IMG/VR virus record: IMGVR_UViG_3300049791_000027
Span: 1-40,689 of that record
Direction: 5' to 3' (one strand)
Origin: a virus
Length of the DNA: 40,689 bases
Below are positions 2,670-40,689 of this stretch, one piece after another. The position numbers and the translations under genes are program-made. How positions within the stretch are numbered: the first letter of the stretch is position 1; the number at the start of each line of letters is the position of its first letter. Under the pieces are notes generated by a model, which did no database searches, was not told the DNA's origin, and saw nothing but the letters and a program-made list of their open reading frames with translations.

Positions 2670-2694
2670 TTAGTTGCAACTAGTTCCAACTTTG

Positions 2695-2719
2695 GCCCCG
2701 GATAATACCGGGGCTTTTT
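2695..2719 (+). terminator. Rho-independent terminator of the early + strand region
   Basis: GCCCCGG (2695-2701) and CCGGGGC (2708-2714) form a 7-bp GC stem with the loop ATAATA, followed by TTTTT (2715-2719). This is a canonical intrinsic terminator. It separates early transcripts from the non-coding block and the terminase promoter. Confidence 0.9.
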
Positions 2720-2782
2720 ATTGGCCGGAATATTGTACGGGCCCAGACGTGGTACAGGGCTTAGTTGTGGGGGGGTGTGGCC

Positions 2783-2800
2783 GGGGGGGTTAACCCCCCC
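2783..2800. repeat. G7-TTAA-C7 palindrome
   Basis: Seven G, TTAA, then seven C form a perfect 18-bp palindrome. It can extrude as a very stable hairpin or bind a dimeric protein. No T-run follows. Confidence 0.85.
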
Positions 2801-2878
2801 AAGCGGTATATTGTACCAAATGGCATATGCACCAAAGTTTGGTTTGTGGCGGGGCTTATGCAGTAGGGCCTAATTTTA

Positions 2879-2918
2879 GGGGGGGTGTGGGGGTGCGTGT
2901 GGGGGTTGGTGTGGGGGG
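2879..2918 (+). other. Canonical G-quadruplex motif
   Basis: Four G-runs at 2879-2885, 2889-2893, 2901-2905 and 2913-2918 are separated by loops of 3, 7 and 7 nt, meeting the usual G3+N1-7 rule on the + strand. A second pair of G7 runs follows at 2969-2975 and 2978-2984. The structure could stall polymerases or mark a replication or packaging site. Confidence 0.75.
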
Positions 2919-3140
2919 CACTTGTAGGGGCTTGTAGGCCGCAGGGCGCTTGGGGCTTAGCACTTGGTGGGGGGGTTGGGGGGGTTAGTTTTAGTAAACC
3001 GACTACCCTACACTCAGCTCTAGGCACTTAGGCGGTATATATACCCCCACAACTGTTGCCAGCGCTTTACCCCCCCAGCCCCGGGCAATGTGCCACCATG
3101 TCCCCAGTGCCGAGCGTTTTGCCCCCCTTCCCAGTGGCCG

Positions 3141-3282
3141 AGCGCCTAGCGCCTAGCGCCTAGCCCCATCCACCTGCCACCCGGCGCCCAGTGCCCAGTG
3201 CCCTTTCCCGCCGCCTAGCGCCTAGCGCCCTGCCCCAAGCCCAACCCACCCTTGGCTACCCTAGCGCCTAGCGCCTAGCGCC
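3141..3282. repeat. Clusters of the heptad TAGCGCC
   Basis: The 7-bp unit TAGCGCC (or GCGCCTA) is tandemly repeated in three clusters: 3141-3163 (3 copies), 3212-3229 (2) and 3261-3282 (3). A related GTGCCCA repeat lies at 3189-3203. Period, spacing and lack of spacers rule out a CRISPR. Iteron-like binding sites are possible. Confidence 0.75.
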
Positions 3283-3352
3283 CCGCCAGCGCGCTTACAG
3301 GGCCCTGTAGTGCTAAGCGCCAAGCTGGTGCAGCCTGATACCCGGCGACGCC

Positions 3353-3440
3353 CCATGCAAGCTCCGTGCCAAGTGCAAAGAGCAATCAGGACTAGCGTTT
3401 GCTGATCTTTGCTCAGGCCCATGCAAGGTTCGTGCCAAGC
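3353..3440 (+). repeat. Imperfect 22-bp direct repeat pair
   Basis: The two copies at 3353-3374 and 3419-3440 share CCATGCAAG followed, after three partly different bases, by CGTGCCAAG. They start 66 bp apart. They lie about 300 bp before the small terminase gene, where terminase recognition sites often lie in other phages. The role is inferred from position only. Confidence 0.5.
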
Positions 3441-3677
3441 GCGTGGATCGCCCTCGCTTGGTGCTCAGTGCCCTGTTGAGGGGCGATTTGACGAGGCGCT
3501 GAGCGCGAAGCCCCCCGGGGGGTGACAACAAAGTGCGGGGTGCTTCGTGCCCGGGTCAGCCGCCGAGCGCAAAATGTGAAGTTTTAAAAGTAGTGCCACT
3601 AGAACCTAGTGCCAAGAGCTAAGTGCTAAGACGCCCCCATAACACCCATCACATTTTGAGCTACGCACCTAAGGAGC

Positions 3678-3711
3678 TTGCTATCATCTATAGGACGTGC
3701 TATAGTGGCAC
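3678..3711 (+). promoter_or_regulatory. Late promoter of the terminase operon with GTGGCAC element
   Basis: TTGCTA (3678-3683), a 17-bp spacer and TATAGT (3701-3706) form a good sigma70-type promoter. GTGGCAC (3705-3711) overlaps the -10 box and predicted start. The ATG at 3739 lies about 26 nt downstream of the predicted start. The same TATAGTGGCAC string recurs at 37181 (+) and on the - strand at 33118-33128. A related GTGCCAC (3593-3599) lies upstream. Confidence 0.75.
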
Positions 3712-3738
3712 TCACACGTCCATGTGCCGGGCCACGTC

Positions 3739-4080
3739 ATGAAAGAAATTAACTTCGAGGAAGCGTTGGACATAGCGCTGACGCAGCGGCAATTGAGCCT
3801 CGCCACTGGGGGCAAGCGGGTCCGGCCATCGCGACGGGAGGTGGAGGAAGGATTTTTGGAGGCGTTCGAACTCGTAGGGGGGATATCTCGCCTAGCGATG
3901 TGGGCCAATAATCCGGCCAACTATGGCGACTTCCTCAAGCTCTACGCTAAGATGATCCCTAAGGAAGTGGCCGAGGACGCGGGGCAGACCTTTATCTACC
4001 AGTCTAACGTCCCGCCGAGTGCTTTGAACAAGCCTGCTGAACTAACGAGGATAGATGATGATCTTACCTCCGTCGAGTAG
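3739..4080 (+). CDS. terS: Small terminase subunit (putative)
   Basis: The product is 113 residues from the ATG at 3739; a GTG at 3724 is in frame, but neither has a strong ribosome site. Its position directly upstream of, and 26 bp overlapping, the large terminase gene is the main evidence. The C-terminal half contains MWANNPANYGDFLKLYAKMI, a pattern I associate with small packaging subunits of podovirus-like phages. It would recognise the packaging site and load the large subunit. The first half is helical with basic residues (GGKRVRPSRRE), suitable for DNA binding. It is the first gene of the late operon. Confidence 0.65.
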   Translation: MKEINFEEALDIALTQRQLSLATGGKRVRPSRREVEEGFLEAFELVGGISRLAMWANNPANYGDFLKLYAKMIPKEVAEDAGQTFIYQSNVPPSALNKPAELTRIDDDLTSVE

Positions 4081-23682: not shown

Positions 23683-24717
23683 TTATTTTCCTTTCTTAAA
23701 TAGGGCGCGAGTATACCATTGTACGATAGCAAGTCGCCAATCATACGCATCGATACATTCTGCGATTTCAATTGCTTCTTGATAATTGCCCAGTTTCCAT
23801 TCCCGCCAACTGGCCCACACTGGCTCGACAGTGTCCTCAAGAAACGGTTCCTCAAATCCCGACTGTTTGCCATTACACAGTTCCTCACATTCTTTAAGGA
23901 ATCGGCGCCAGTTCACAGCTATCGGCTTGCGTGGCGGGGGCTTCAGTACGCCTGCATACCGCTCCCACGGCACGGAATTGTCCTGTACCTCCTGTGCGAT
24001 ACCCTTCACCATGCCCCAGTGGCGCTCGTAGACGTGTAGGTTATTGGTTACGTGGTGCCAAGCCCCGCACTGTACGCCCAACGCGTTCGCCATGAACTCT
24101 TGCAGCATCGTCAGATGTACGGCATTGGCCCCACACAACCCCCATACGAGGTCGTTGCTGCGGTTGATAATGGTGAAGTCCAGGCGGTCGTACTTGGTCA
24201 TTCCGTCTGGGCTGTCCTTGGTACTGAACGACGGCATAATCATCACGTTACATGGGAAGTCCTTACCGTCCTTGCCATTGCCGTCCTCTCGGGCGTCCCA
24301 CATACTGATGATGGCCCTCCTGTCGTTCGGGTCTTCATCAAGCATTTCTATACACTTGGTGATTTGGTCCACGTCAAAATGGTTACGCCAGCGGTGTCCG
24401 TAAGCAGCATGAAAAACTGCTCCGTCATCGCTATAGTTTTCAATGTTGGAGTTGAATTGCTGAAGGAATGCAACGTCGTTACGACCCGCAAACATCCAGA
24501 TAGATTCCATGAGGTGGAAAACATGGTTACAGTTCCTTTCTACGTCGAACAGTACCCGCTCCCACGGCTCGCGTACTGTGATGGATTGCACGCCTATAAA
24601 CTTGATGGCTGGCCCGTTACGGGTCATCACCTTCTCAGCAAACTTTGGGTCCATGGCGCGATAACACAAGTTCCGCCACATACCGCGCAGGTCTGTGAAC
24701 TCTCTATAGGTCATCAT
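23683..24717 (-). CDS. Thymidylate synthase-family enzyme (probable dUMP/dCMP C5-modifying)
   Basis: The product is 344 residues. The fold is clear: ESIWMFAG (E71), the nucleophile in DFPCNVM (C156), INRSNDL (R186-D189) and NNLHVY near the end. The loop that is GLPFN in normal ThyA reads GLCGAN here, so the asparagine that selects dUMP is shifted or changed. This is a sign of a phage variant, and a dUMP or dCMP hydroxymethylase is possible. Its place between the base-modifying protein and the HD nucleotidase supports a role in making a modified pyrimidine. The ATG overlaps the preceding stop. Ordinary thymidylate synthase is the alternative. Confidence 0.8.
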   Translation of the reverse strand: MMTYREFTDLRGMWRNLCYRAMDPKFAEKVMTRNGPAIKFIGVQSITVREPWERVLFDVERNCNHVFHLMESIWMFAGRNDVAFLQQFNSNIENYSDDGAVFHAAYGHRWRNHFDVDQITKCIEMLDEDPNDRRAIISMWDAREDGNGKDGKDFPCNVMIMPSFSTKDSPDGMTKYDRLDFTIINRSNDLVWGLCGANAVHLTMLQEFMANALGVQCGAWHHVTNNLHVYERHWGMVKGIAQEVQDNSVPWERYAGVLKPPPRKPIAVNWRRFLKECEELCNGKQSGFEEPFLEDTVEPVWASWREWKLGNYQEAIEIAECIDAYDWRLAIVQWYTRALFKKGK

Positions 24718-25565
24718 TTCTTTTCCCTCTTGTAGTAGCGCTTGCGGCTCTTAGTGCGGGGGTTGCTGTACTTCATGTATTTCTGGAACTCACAGAGGCA
24801 GTTCTGCAAGTCCTGAGCGTGGATCTCCATGGCCCATACGTCTTCCGGCATAACGTCGTACAGGATAGACATGCGGGCCATGAAGTTGCCCTTAGTCGTG
24901 GTTCCCTCCCCGAATATAAAATCAAGCCCCTTTATGGACCCCGGCCCCGGCGTACACCAGTCCTGATGCTCGGCAGCGGCTACCAGATAGCGGTCGTTGC
25001 GTAGGTCCGCAATAACTTGCCCGGCCAGAAAGCCCGTGCCGCCAAGCCCAGCAATACTGCTCAGCGCTGCGTGCGCATTTGCAAGGGAGTCGGTCGGAAT
25101 GATTACCTTTTGCGCTGCGAGCACCATGCTCAGCACGTAGTCTATCTTGTCAACGCGTTGACCCGCTGTGCTCACCACGTAGGCGGGGTTGAAGATCTTA
25201 TTGCCCTGATCCCTGTAGTCCTTCAGGTTCTCAAAGGCCTCTTCAATACTGGCCCCATCATTCGTCCAGGTCAGGACTCTTTCCAGCGTCGGGGCGTGGT
25301 TGAAGAGCCGAGCCATCAGGTAAACAGTCGGCAAGCAACTGACAGTCACAGTATCCAGATCCTCGGCTGGGAAGTAGGACTCTACAACTGCGCGGATTTC
25401 CTTAGTGCCACGGTCATCCTCGCGGTGGACATTGCAGAAGTGGTACGTCTGCAGGATTGGGTCGTCAGTCCATCGGCACCTCGGCACAAGGCGCTCTTTC
25501 TTATAGCGGATATTTTCCCGCTCCCGAATCCAGTACCAGAATTTCTCGAGGGTCTCTTCGTTCAT
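24714..25565 (-). CDS. DNA base hypermodification protein (aGPT-PPlase/HMUDK_hel-type)
   Basis: The product is 283 residues; TAGGAG precedes the ATG. Signature motifs are FWYWIRERENIRYKKE (about 9-24), TDDPILQTYHFCNVHREDD (33-51), a helix-hairpin-helix-like IAGLGGTGFLAGQVIADL (171-188), GPGSIKGLDFIFG (207-219), CLCEFQKY (256-263) and the end SRKRYYK. I recognise these from the glycosylase-like families of hypermodified-thymidine phages (alpha-glutamyl/putrescinyl-thymine pyrophosphorylase and 5-hmdU DNA kinase helical domain groups). Related enzymes act on activated hydroxymethyluracil in DNA. The exact member is not decided. ATGA overlaps join it to both neighbours. Confidence 0.82.
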   Translation of the reverse strand: MNEETLEKFWYWIRERENIRYKKERLVPRCRWTDDPILQTYHFCNVHREDDRGTKEIRAVVESYFPAEDLDTVTVSCLPTVYLMARLFNHAPTLERVLTWTNDGASIEEAFENLKDYRDQGNKIFNPAYVVSTAGQRVDKIDYVLSMVLAAQKVIIPTDSLANAHAALSSIAGLGGTGFLAGQVIADLRNDRYLVAAAEHQDWCTPGPGSIKGLDFIFGEGTTTKGNFMARMSILYDVMPEDVWAMEIHAQDLQNCLCEFQKYMKYSNPRTKSRKRYYKREKK

Positions 25566-26320
25566 GCTTTGCTACTCCTATAGGCTTTCTGCCAGCGGAC
25601 AGAGACGTCCCAGCGCTTGCCTATATCCCAGCCGTCTTTCTGGGTCAGCGTTACGAAGTCCGGGAACATGCGCTGTAGTTCACGAGCACAATGCTCAAGC
25701 AATTCTACCGTGCGGATATTGCTACATCCTCCGGGAGCATTGCTCCTGTAATGGTCCTGGACAACCCCATAATAGTTCAGGGAGCTATACCCGCTTGTCA
25801 AGAGCTTTAAGTTCATCTCAAAGTCTTGCATCAGGGGCAGCGTTATCCTAATATTCTGCGCTCGGACCACATTCAAATTGTACGCCAGTGCCCGCATGAT
25901 GCGACCATTCGGGGCCACCAACGGCTGATTGTTGGCAAATTGCCTGTGACCAATGCCTGAATGGGCTACTCTGTCAAGCAGGGAATCAACCACTGCAAAG
26001 GCATTACGGAAGGACTGGCCGTTCTCGTCCTTCTTGTAGGACGTAGTGCCCGCCACTCGATAGGCCCAGTTGGCGAGGTCGTCGTCCAGCATTAGTAGCT
26101 TATCATCGGAGCTATTATCTATGGCCCACTGGCGGGAGGGACTGATGCCGGGGCCAGCGCCGTGCGTACAGACGCTATACCCGGCGTCGCGTAGCTGTGT
26201 AGATAGCTCTTTATCGTTAACCAGTAGCTGGACGCCATACATGGCCCGGTATTCTTCGGGGATGCGGTCATATGTAAGTTGTTCATATGGGCCGCGATTG
26301 GTGGGGATGAATATTTTCAT
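25562..26320 (-). CDS. TAGT-type glycosyltransferase (GT-A fold)
   Basis: The product is 252 residues from the ATG at 26320 with AGAGG upstream; a GTG at 26341 would add seven residues but overlaps the operator. The N-terminus KIFIPTNRG and the metal-binding LMLDDDL (D79-D81) mark a GT-A glycosyltransferase. The overall length and IFIPT...R start fit the TET-associated glycosyltransferase family, which transfers sugars to modified bases in DNA. No TET dioxygenase is seen here. It is the first gene of the modification operon and overlaps the next by ATGA. Confidence 0.75.
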   Translation of the reverse strand: MKIFIPTNRGPYEQLTYDRIPEEYRAMYGVQLLVNDKELSTQLRDAGYSVCTHGAGPGISPSRQWAIDNSSDDKLLMLDDDLANWAYRVAGTTSYKKDENGQSFRNAFAVVDSLLDRVAHSGIGHRQFANNQPLVAPNGRIMRALAYNLNVVRAQNIRITLPLMQDFEMNLKLLTSGYSSLNYYGVVQDHYRSNAPGGCSNIRTVELLEHCARELQRMFPDFVTLTQKDGWDIGKRWDVSVRWQKAYRSSKA

Positions 26321-26331
26321 TGGATAAACCT

Positions 26332-26344
26332 CTAGTGGCACTAG
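26332..26344 (-). promoter_or_regulatory. CTAGTGGCACTAG operator, possible promoter of the modification operon
   Basis: A perfect 13-bp palindrome centred on G26338, containing GTGGCAC, lies 12 bp upstream of the glycosyltransferase ATG. On the - strand, TTGTCC (26360-26355) is 17 bp from CACTAG (26337-26332). That -10 is poor and would give a leaderless mRNA, and TCTAGT (26345-26340) lacks a good -35. The operator is firmer than the promoter. Transcription could also come from 26967-26995 through the terminator. Confidence 0.6.
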
Positions 26345-33117: not shown

Positions 33118-33132
33118 GTGCCACTATAGCAT
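33118..33132 (-). promoter_or_regulatory. - strand extended -10 promoter with GTGGCAC
   Basis: On the - strand TGC-TATAGT (-10 at 33128-33123) is followed by GTGGCAC (33124-33118). No TTGC-type -35 lies 17 bp upstream (AGCAAT), but the TG of an extended -10 is present. It would start about 22 nt before the ATG at 33094. Confidence 0.6.
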
Positions 33133-37157: not shown

Positions 37158-37191
37158 TTGCTCAGTAGTGCCACTGCTGTTATAGTGGCAC
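37158..37191 (+). promoter_or_regulatory. + strand promoter with paired GTGCCAC/GTGGCAC elements
   Basis: TTGCTC (37158-37163), 17 bp, TATAGT (37181-37186). GTGCCAC lies in the spacer (37168-37174) and GTGGCAC overlaps the -10 (37185-37191), starting 17 bp later. It drives the genes from 37228 towards the primase-helicase. Confidence 0.8.
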
Positions 37192-39187: not shown

Positions 39188-40689
39188 ATGTCCATCTCTA
39201 AGTTCTTGCAAACGGACAAAACATATCTATCAGAAGCCGCCGACTACTTAGACAGTCGTGGCGTCACCATCCAGGACCTGCCAATCCTTACGTACAAGAA
39301 CGCCAACATCGGGTTCTTTACCAAGACTGGCCCGGACCAATCCCAACCCCATATCATTGAGGGCTGGGCGTTTAAGATACGTGGCCCAGAGGATGGGTAC
39401 TACGATGATCGCTGGCTACTCAGGGCTTGCAACTGGGATGGGAATACTGATTACTACCAGCGGCGGAACAAGGTCTACCACAAAGTCGAGAAGCCCCCCA
39501 AATTCGTACAGCTGAGTGAGAAGGGCGCCGACTGCATCTATTATATGGCTAGCATGGAGGCGCTGTGTCATGCCCCCATCGTCATGTTCCATGAGAAGTT
39601 CACCAGCGCATCCTTGGCCCAGAAACTGACCGGCATCCCGGCGCTGGCCCTCTCCGGATGCACCAACTGGTCCACAGACAAGCGACTCAAAGATTCCCTG
39701 ACCGCCATGATCAAGTGCATGGTGCCCAGCGCTAAGATCGTAGTGTGCTTTGATGGGGATATACTCGAAAACCCAAACGTGATGCACGCCGCATCTCAGC
39801 TCAAGGGGTGGATCCATGCTATTCGACCAGATATATCGGTATCTTTCCCAAACGTACCACCACTCACCGACGGGCGTAATGGTTGGGATGACTGGCTTGT
39901 GGACCAAGGAGAATTTGCAAGAAGTCATTTCCTTGCTATCATCGAAGACAATGGGGTTGATGTCACCACTGCCCTTCCGATCGCGCATCTTATTGCTAAG
40001 TACCAAGTCAAGGTCAAAGTCCTTAAAGAATCCATACATATCGAGCAGACCGCAGCCAATTACCGTCGCCTACTCCACCATCCGCTCTGGGAGAATTACA
40101 TCCAGGACACTAGTGGGGCTGTATATGACAGAGAGGACATAGGGGCTGGCGGGCTCTCATTAGAGGAGTTCGCTATGCGCTATGAGACGTGGCTGGCGGA
40201 CACAGTATTCCTTGGCGAAGGTGCTGGCGTGCGGGGCACACAAGTTAAACAGGCATGCAAGATGGAGTTAGCGAGCCGTACAGAGTCCGTGCCGCTGCTA
40301 CTGCTAAGCGCGCAACCCCCAGTTACCCTGCTACAAGCGCAAACCGCAGCTATACGCATGTTCACTGACGGTATACGGGTCACTGGCCCCATGTCAATGG
40401 ACGAAACAGTAACAACGATGATTCGTATGGCCCGGGACATGGTCGCACTATGGTCCTCGGATAAGTCAGTCGATGTCCAGTGGGTGCTGGCCCTAGTCGG
40501 TCCAACCGGATGCGGTAAGTCTAACTTCCCAAAGAGCTTTCTGCGCTGTTTCGAGGCACTCGGCTACCACCCCACCATCGCGCAATTGGATAAAGACGGC
40601 AGCAGGGCCACCATGCCAGAGTATGTCCGCCAATGCCGCGACACTATGATGGCGGTGTTCGACGAATATAACCCCGATGACCGATGCGC
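39188..40689 (+). CDS. Primase-helicase, N-terminal part (continues at 1-803)
   Basis: The start ATG at 39188 follows AGAGGAG with a 6-nt spacer. The joined product is 725 residues. The N-terminal third carries a TOPRIM-like region of the DUF3854 type: FHEKFTSASLA, then ALSGCTNW, then the acidic motif VVCFDGD, as expected for a primase catalytic domain. The C-terminal half carries Walker A GPTGCGKSN (K444), and the rest of the helicase lies at 1-803. A fused primase and SF3/VapE-like helicase would unwind and prime phage DNA together with the family A polymerase encoded at 29314-31095. It is the last and largest gene of the + strand early region. The open frame has no stop before the right end only because the circle was cut inside it. 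Confidence 0.85.
   Translation, partial: MSISKFLQTDKTYLSEAADYLDSRGVTIQDLPILTYKNANIGFFTKTGPDQSQPHIIEGWAFKIRGPEDGYYDDRWLLRACNWDGNTDYYQRRNKVYHKVEKPPKFVQLSEKGADCIYYMASMEALCHAPIVMFHEKFTSASLAQKLTGIPALALSGCTNWSTDKRLKDSLTAMIKCMVPSAKIVVCFDGDILENPNVMHAASQLKGWIHAIRPDISVSFPNVPPLTDGRNGWDDWLVDQGEFARSHFLAIIEDNGVDVTTALPIAHLIAKYQVKVKVLKESIHIEQTAANYRRLLHHPLWENYIQDTSGAVYDREDIGAGGLSLEEFAMRYETWLADTVFLGEGAGVRGTQVKQACKMELASRTESVPLLLLSAQPPVTLLQAQTAAIRMFTDGIRVTGPMSMDETVTTMIRMARDMVALWSSDKSVDVQWVLALVGPTGCGKSNFPKSFLRCFEALGYHPTIAQLDKDGSRATMPEYVRQCRDTMMAVFDEYNPDDRC
40563..40689. repeat. 127-bp terminal direct repeat, right copy
   Basis: Identical to 1-127. Removing one copy gives a 40,562-bp unit genome and restores one intact primase-helicase gene. 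Confidence 0.97.

Follow-up and report, generated by a model that had tools for sequence, protein, structure and literature searches.

The window, that is the whole 40,689-bp IMG/VR record analysed here, contains one long gene-free block directly ahead of its terminase genes. We propose that this block is the boundary between early and late transcription and that its most likely content is a pac-like region, at which a headful or terminally redundant phage would initiate packaging, joined to the late promoter; to this reading we give close to an even chance. Inside the block lies a small, previously unnamed DNA element which is retained by many relatives. The features of the region are:

2670–3738, no strand: gene-free block of 1,069 nt between the rightward early operon and terS, without a conserved ORF
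2694–2722, plus strand: intrinsic terminator GGCCCCGGATAATACCGGGGC-TTTTTATT, closing the upstream operon
2760–2990, plus strand: G-rich stretch with G7 runs, the palindrome G7TTAAC7 (2783–2800) and quadruplex motifs (2769–2789, 2879–2918, 2969–2984)
2945–3628, no strand: degenerate 7-nt-phased words AGNNCYN, including the TAGCGCC clusters
3352–3442, plus strand: pair of 25-nt direct repeats (3352–3376 and 3418–3442; 88%), 66 bp apart
3508–3547, plus strand: first half of the conserved element, consisting of a C-run, CAACAAAG and a G-run; possible hairpin
3562–3586, plus strand: second half of the conserved element, GAGCGCAAAATGTGAA-GTTTTA, a degenerate AAAAT-n-ATTTT dyad
3649–3662, minus strand: the AAAATGTGA box in inverted orientation, directly ahead of the promoter; close relatives keep only part of the box
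3678–3711, plus strand: sigma70-like late promoter TTGCTA-17-TATAGT with an extended -10 and a conserved GGCAC
3739–4080, plus strand: terS, 113 residues
4055–5470, plus strand: terL, 471 residues

The two ends of the record overlap exactly by 127 bp (1–127 = 40563–40689), so that the map of the window is circular with 40,562 bp. An exact closing overlap of 127 bp is common to four complete maps (window, G004, G010 and G012) and is probably a product of assembly, a circle closed at a k-mer, and not a repeat of biological origin. The late genes extend rightward from terS to about 22.5 kb; genes for replication and DNA modification are read leftward; and a set of small and primase-like genes runs rightward across the contig joint up to about 2.67 kb. 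The block thereby parts the early from the late genes. As the start of terS was moved from GTG 3724 to ATG 3739, which is common to the relatives, the gene-free stretch covers about 2670–3738. The preliminary description had reported almost 1 kb without genes; this holds, and the block is the largest gap between conserved ORFs and the only gene-free stretch longer than about 330 nt in the circular map, the next-largest gap measuring about 330 nt. Its GC content is 0.60.

The terL product matches phrog_2 (1e-33). The terS product matched no Pfam or PHROG family and was named from its position before terL and its conservation alone. At 23683–26341, genes for a thymidylate-synthase-like protein, a 5-hmdU DNA kinase (HMUDK_hel) and a TAGT glycosyltransferase are adjacent; this row of genes indicates that the phage probably contains hypermodified thymidine. 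The 5-hmdU DNA kinase gene is present in 10 of the 19 records searched, window counted.

Named phages gave no DNA match to the window. Searches with TerL and TerS yielded three close genomes (G001–G003, TerL 88–93%) and about 25 records at 52–61%, many relatives being fragments. The TerL tree is long-branched and was used only to show the nearest lineage. The block itself proved conserved in position, as the same place is occupied in nearly all relatives. When the relatives are read side by side, the terminator, the promoter and an element of about 90 bp are constant, while G-runs, quadruplex motifs and repeat words change. The constant parts, like the 7-nt periodicity described below, were absent from the preliminary description.

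Terminator and promoter flank the block (2694–2722 and 3678–3706). An equivalent stem followed by a T-run was read at the place of the terminator in most relatives, and at the downstream edge of their blocks a promoter with the 17-nt spacer and the extended -10 is kept. Early rightward transcription would halt at the terminator, and the sigma70-type promoter would drive terS, terL and the portal gene. The promoter core TGCTATAGTGGCAC (3698–3711, plus strand) recurs at 33118–33131 on the minus strand and, with one mismatch, at 37178–37191 on the plus strand. The copy at 33118 is found at the same place in G001–G003.

The conserved element (3508–3597) is bipartite. It starts with a C-run, CAAAAAG and usually a G-run, and continues about 50 bp further with CAAAATGTGA-(n)-TTTT. 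Across the relatives, the first half consists of a C-run, a spacer, (A)CAAAAAG and usually a G-run, and the second half reads GYRCAAAATGTGA and then TTTT, about 50–55 bp after the start of the first half; in L180 its dyad is a perfect palindrome, GCAAATTC-TTA-GAATTTGC. Pairing in the possible hairpin of the first half found no covariation support, and L180 lacks the G-run. A sequence-only model detects the element in most relatives with a TerL identity of at least 50%, with one hit per genome, in front of terS, and mostly with E values of 1e-10 to 1e-18. Eight genomes that are complete or nearly so, window counted, have one element each (in G004 the second half only), and most partial records also have it, always ahead of terS. 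No second copy was found by the model in the genomes searched. These detections are to be read with the fact that the model, R1, was trained on relatives it then finds and was tested largely on sequences related to the training set. Matches outside that set are L160 (half element, 4e-6) and L197 (6e-4); near-identical records add the L195 and L154 versions. Degenerate versions, which the model misses or on whose stretch it was not run, were recognized by eye in G005, G008, L007, L157, L190, L191 and L180. The model found no element in the TerL 43–48% group or in the named phages BUCT555, P26218 and HTVC010P.

The half-to-half spacing is kept at about 50–55 bp, while the distance to terS ranges from about 100 to 365 bp and that to the promoter shifts by over 100 bp with no fixed phase. 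In L197 (1–2090) three inserted genes separate the element from terS, which follows at a distance of about 2 kb, and the element is still ahead of terS-terL. (At the start of the L197 contig stands GTTTCCCAGTCACGATC, apparently an amplification primer that remained in the assembly.) Late-operon control is one alternative: a phage regulator which loops to the late promoter might bind the AAAATGTGA dyad, the inverted half-site at 3649 and the phased words, with no role in packaging. In nearly all members the element indeed sits after the early terminator and before the late promoter, and it stays ahead of the late genes in L197 despite the insertion, and the recurrence of the promoter core at 33118 (minus) and 37178 (plus) makes phage-specific control plausible. 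However, the distance to the promoter has no fixed phasing, the other promoter copies are not accompanied by the element, and in the set of small ORFs tested Pfam revealed no regulator, RHH or otherwise. The constant inner spacing combined with a drifting distance to promoter and terS is more readily understood for a self-contained DNA site than for an activator bound at a promoter. We regard late control without packaging as possible but on the unlikely side.

A second regularity of the block is its 7-nt periodicity. The words AGNNCYN form 14 heptad pairs where 0.28 are expected, and the density of overlapping pairs is about 25 times that in the rest of the genome. Over 21 family members, lag 7 is the leading signal when compared with first-order Markov shuffles (mean z 3.6; 16 of the 21 above 2.33), with harmonics at 14 and 21. 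L191 has tandem repeats of another unit with period 8. The 7-nt periodicity was not seen in the TerL 43–48% group, P26218 and HTVC010P, an absence which is less firm because the noncoding stretch of these genomes was chosen by a crude rule. Both features, the periodicity and the element, thus appear to mark one clade. That the 7-bp period persists although its words differ points to a protein lattice more than to a single site. Omega, the RHH protein of pSM19035, has arrays of contiguous 7-bp sites that overlap promoters (PMC9499535). The window resembles that system in its 7-bp site arrays but differs in its words, AGNNCYN; the Omega heptad WATCACW is not enriched in the window, and no RHH protein was found by Pfam in the small ORFs tested. 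Speculatively, a nearly palindromic, 7-bp-phased AGNNCT array wrapped by a phage protein, together with the two-part element of fixed spacing, could be a new type of terminase-proximal nucleoprotein site through which one clade of uncultured phages couples the early–late switch to packaging initiation; this extended proposal we consider doubtful.

The remaining features of the preliminary description are all present and cluster in the block beyond chance. The G7-TTAA-C7 palindrome (2783–2800) has an expectation of 0 in shuffles, further G7 runs start at 2769, 2969 and 2978, and the block holds 11 of the 23 runs of six or more G or C (p 4e-12). All five quadruplex motifs of the genome (three on the plus, two on the minus strand) are in the block, including the one described at 2879–2918. 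The three TAGCGCC clusters (3147–3160, 3216–3229, 3262–3282) contribute to 7 of the 13 genome copies, counted on both strands, being in the block (binomial p 1.3e-8), and the repeat pair given as 22 bp extends to 25 nt. The relatives have kept neither the G-runs and quadruplex motifs nor the exact TAGCGCC words, which makes it unlikely that these, or the G7 palindrome, are the functional core. G-runs and quadruplex motifs are probably fast-evolving extras. A conserved G-quadruplex was rejected, as the blocks of relatives have at most one motif (one in G001, on the other strand; none in G002–G010). A structured RNA was rejected as well: Rfam gave no match in the block, alifold returned four C–G pairs without covariation, and neither the G7 palindrome nor the hairpin of the window stands out when folded as a single strand (z about -1.5).

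The complete turnover of G-runs, quadruplexes and exact repeat words between relatives, and the tandem repeats of another unit in some of them (L191), would be expected if the block were for the most part neutral, a filler of noncoding DNA prone to slippage, with nothing but an ordinary terminator and promoter in it. This is hardly credible in view of the conservation of the 90-bp element (E down to 1e-18) and of a 7-nt period which recurs with similar words across diverged genomes.

We also considered a replication origin, in which the phased repeats would serve as iterons and single-strand initiation would occur at the GC-rich hairpin. The block is the only large noncoding region of the genome, a primase-like gene (DUF3854) lies a few genes upstream, and the block of the relative L013 (3400–3760) has DnaA-box-like TTATCCACA sites and a 15-nt repeat in five copies, with TACACACTGACGTGT units. 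Such boxes and iteron-like repeats were found in L013 only, with no DnaA-type box in the block of the window, and the GC-rich block offers no AT-rich stretch for unwinding. GC-skew minima, although confounded by transcription, are mostly 5–10 kb upstream of terL and thus outside the block. An origin therefore seems improbable.

For packaging initiation, the ~90-bp element and the 7-bp-phased array would be the recognition sites for TerS, perhaps together with another phage or host protein, and the assembled TerS would direct the first cut by TerL at the pac-like region. This layout resembles that of SPP1 pac. In SPP1/SF6, sets of direct repeats together with promoters make up the pac region, which is located at and before the terS start (PMC4737164); when the layouts are compared, the window likewise has direct repeats spanning the terS promoter and start. 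It differs in its repeat units and sequence, no relation between the TerS sequences was found, and the period of 7 and the bipartite element are not known from SPP1. The closest TerL and portal among phages with a described packaging mode are those of Mx8 and Mx9 (TerL match to Mx8, E 1e-40; portal match to Mx8/Mx9, 32–33% identity), which fits headful packaging; Mx9 was called headful pac by PhageTerm (PMC10281127). Unlike the window, Mx8 has a tightly gene-packed terS/terL region in its annotation, without such a block. The gene order terS, terL, portal is shared with P22/Sf6, with a distant TerL. The pac site of P22 sits within terS, and its 22-bp sequence was not found in the window. The exact 127-bp closures of the four complete maps, together with the ends of G001, which join inside a conserved gene, are consistent with permuted or terminally redundant DNA.

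Some observations speak against packaging initiation at the block. In L189 the block is absent, the primase-like gene nearly abutting terS (2497–2621), and the model finds no element in this 41-kb record. TerS has no recognizable DNA-binding domain or fold (the AlphaFold2 model, pLDDT 58, was too poor for a fold search). The P22 pac and lambda cosN sequences are both missing from the window. Two or three contigs end near the element, which could instead point to a fixed end, or to the C-run having left a gap in the sequencing.

If the genome had a fixed end within the block, either cos or a direct terminal repeat, these contigs would be accounted for. Fixed ends are usually located upstream of terS; LUZ24 has its 184-bp terminal repeats there, in a long noncoding stretch with promoters ahead of terS. 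L157 begins at the C-run, L150 in the A-rich part, and the break in G003 is about 70 nt upstream. A circular map would also result from a long repeat that was collapsed. However, these three ends differ, other complete contigs break at scattered sites, and contig ends in metagenome assemblies are weak evidence on physical ends. Their clustering was rejected as evidence for a fixed end, being too few and not coincident. Terminal repeats of the LUZ24 type were rejected by homology: the LUZ24 TerL belongs to another lineage, outside this family, and its stretch is unlike in sequence and has tRNA-like genes by eye. A cosN-like overhang was not found in the window, lambda's own sequence being the one tried. 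We consider a fixed end highly improbable. The role suggested by the preliminary description, pac/cos or origin, is partly supported: position, the element ahead of terS and the SPP1-like layout fit packaging; the scattered contig ends and exact-overlap circular maps offer a fixed cos end no clear support; and the GC-skew minima fall mostly outside the block, which speaks rather against an origin.

Few phages have a known packaging site, and the genomes of uncultured ones do not reveal the ends of virion DNA. An element which can be defined by sequence alone, occurs once per genome and is linked to the terminase is a concrete and cheap target for locating the start of packaging.
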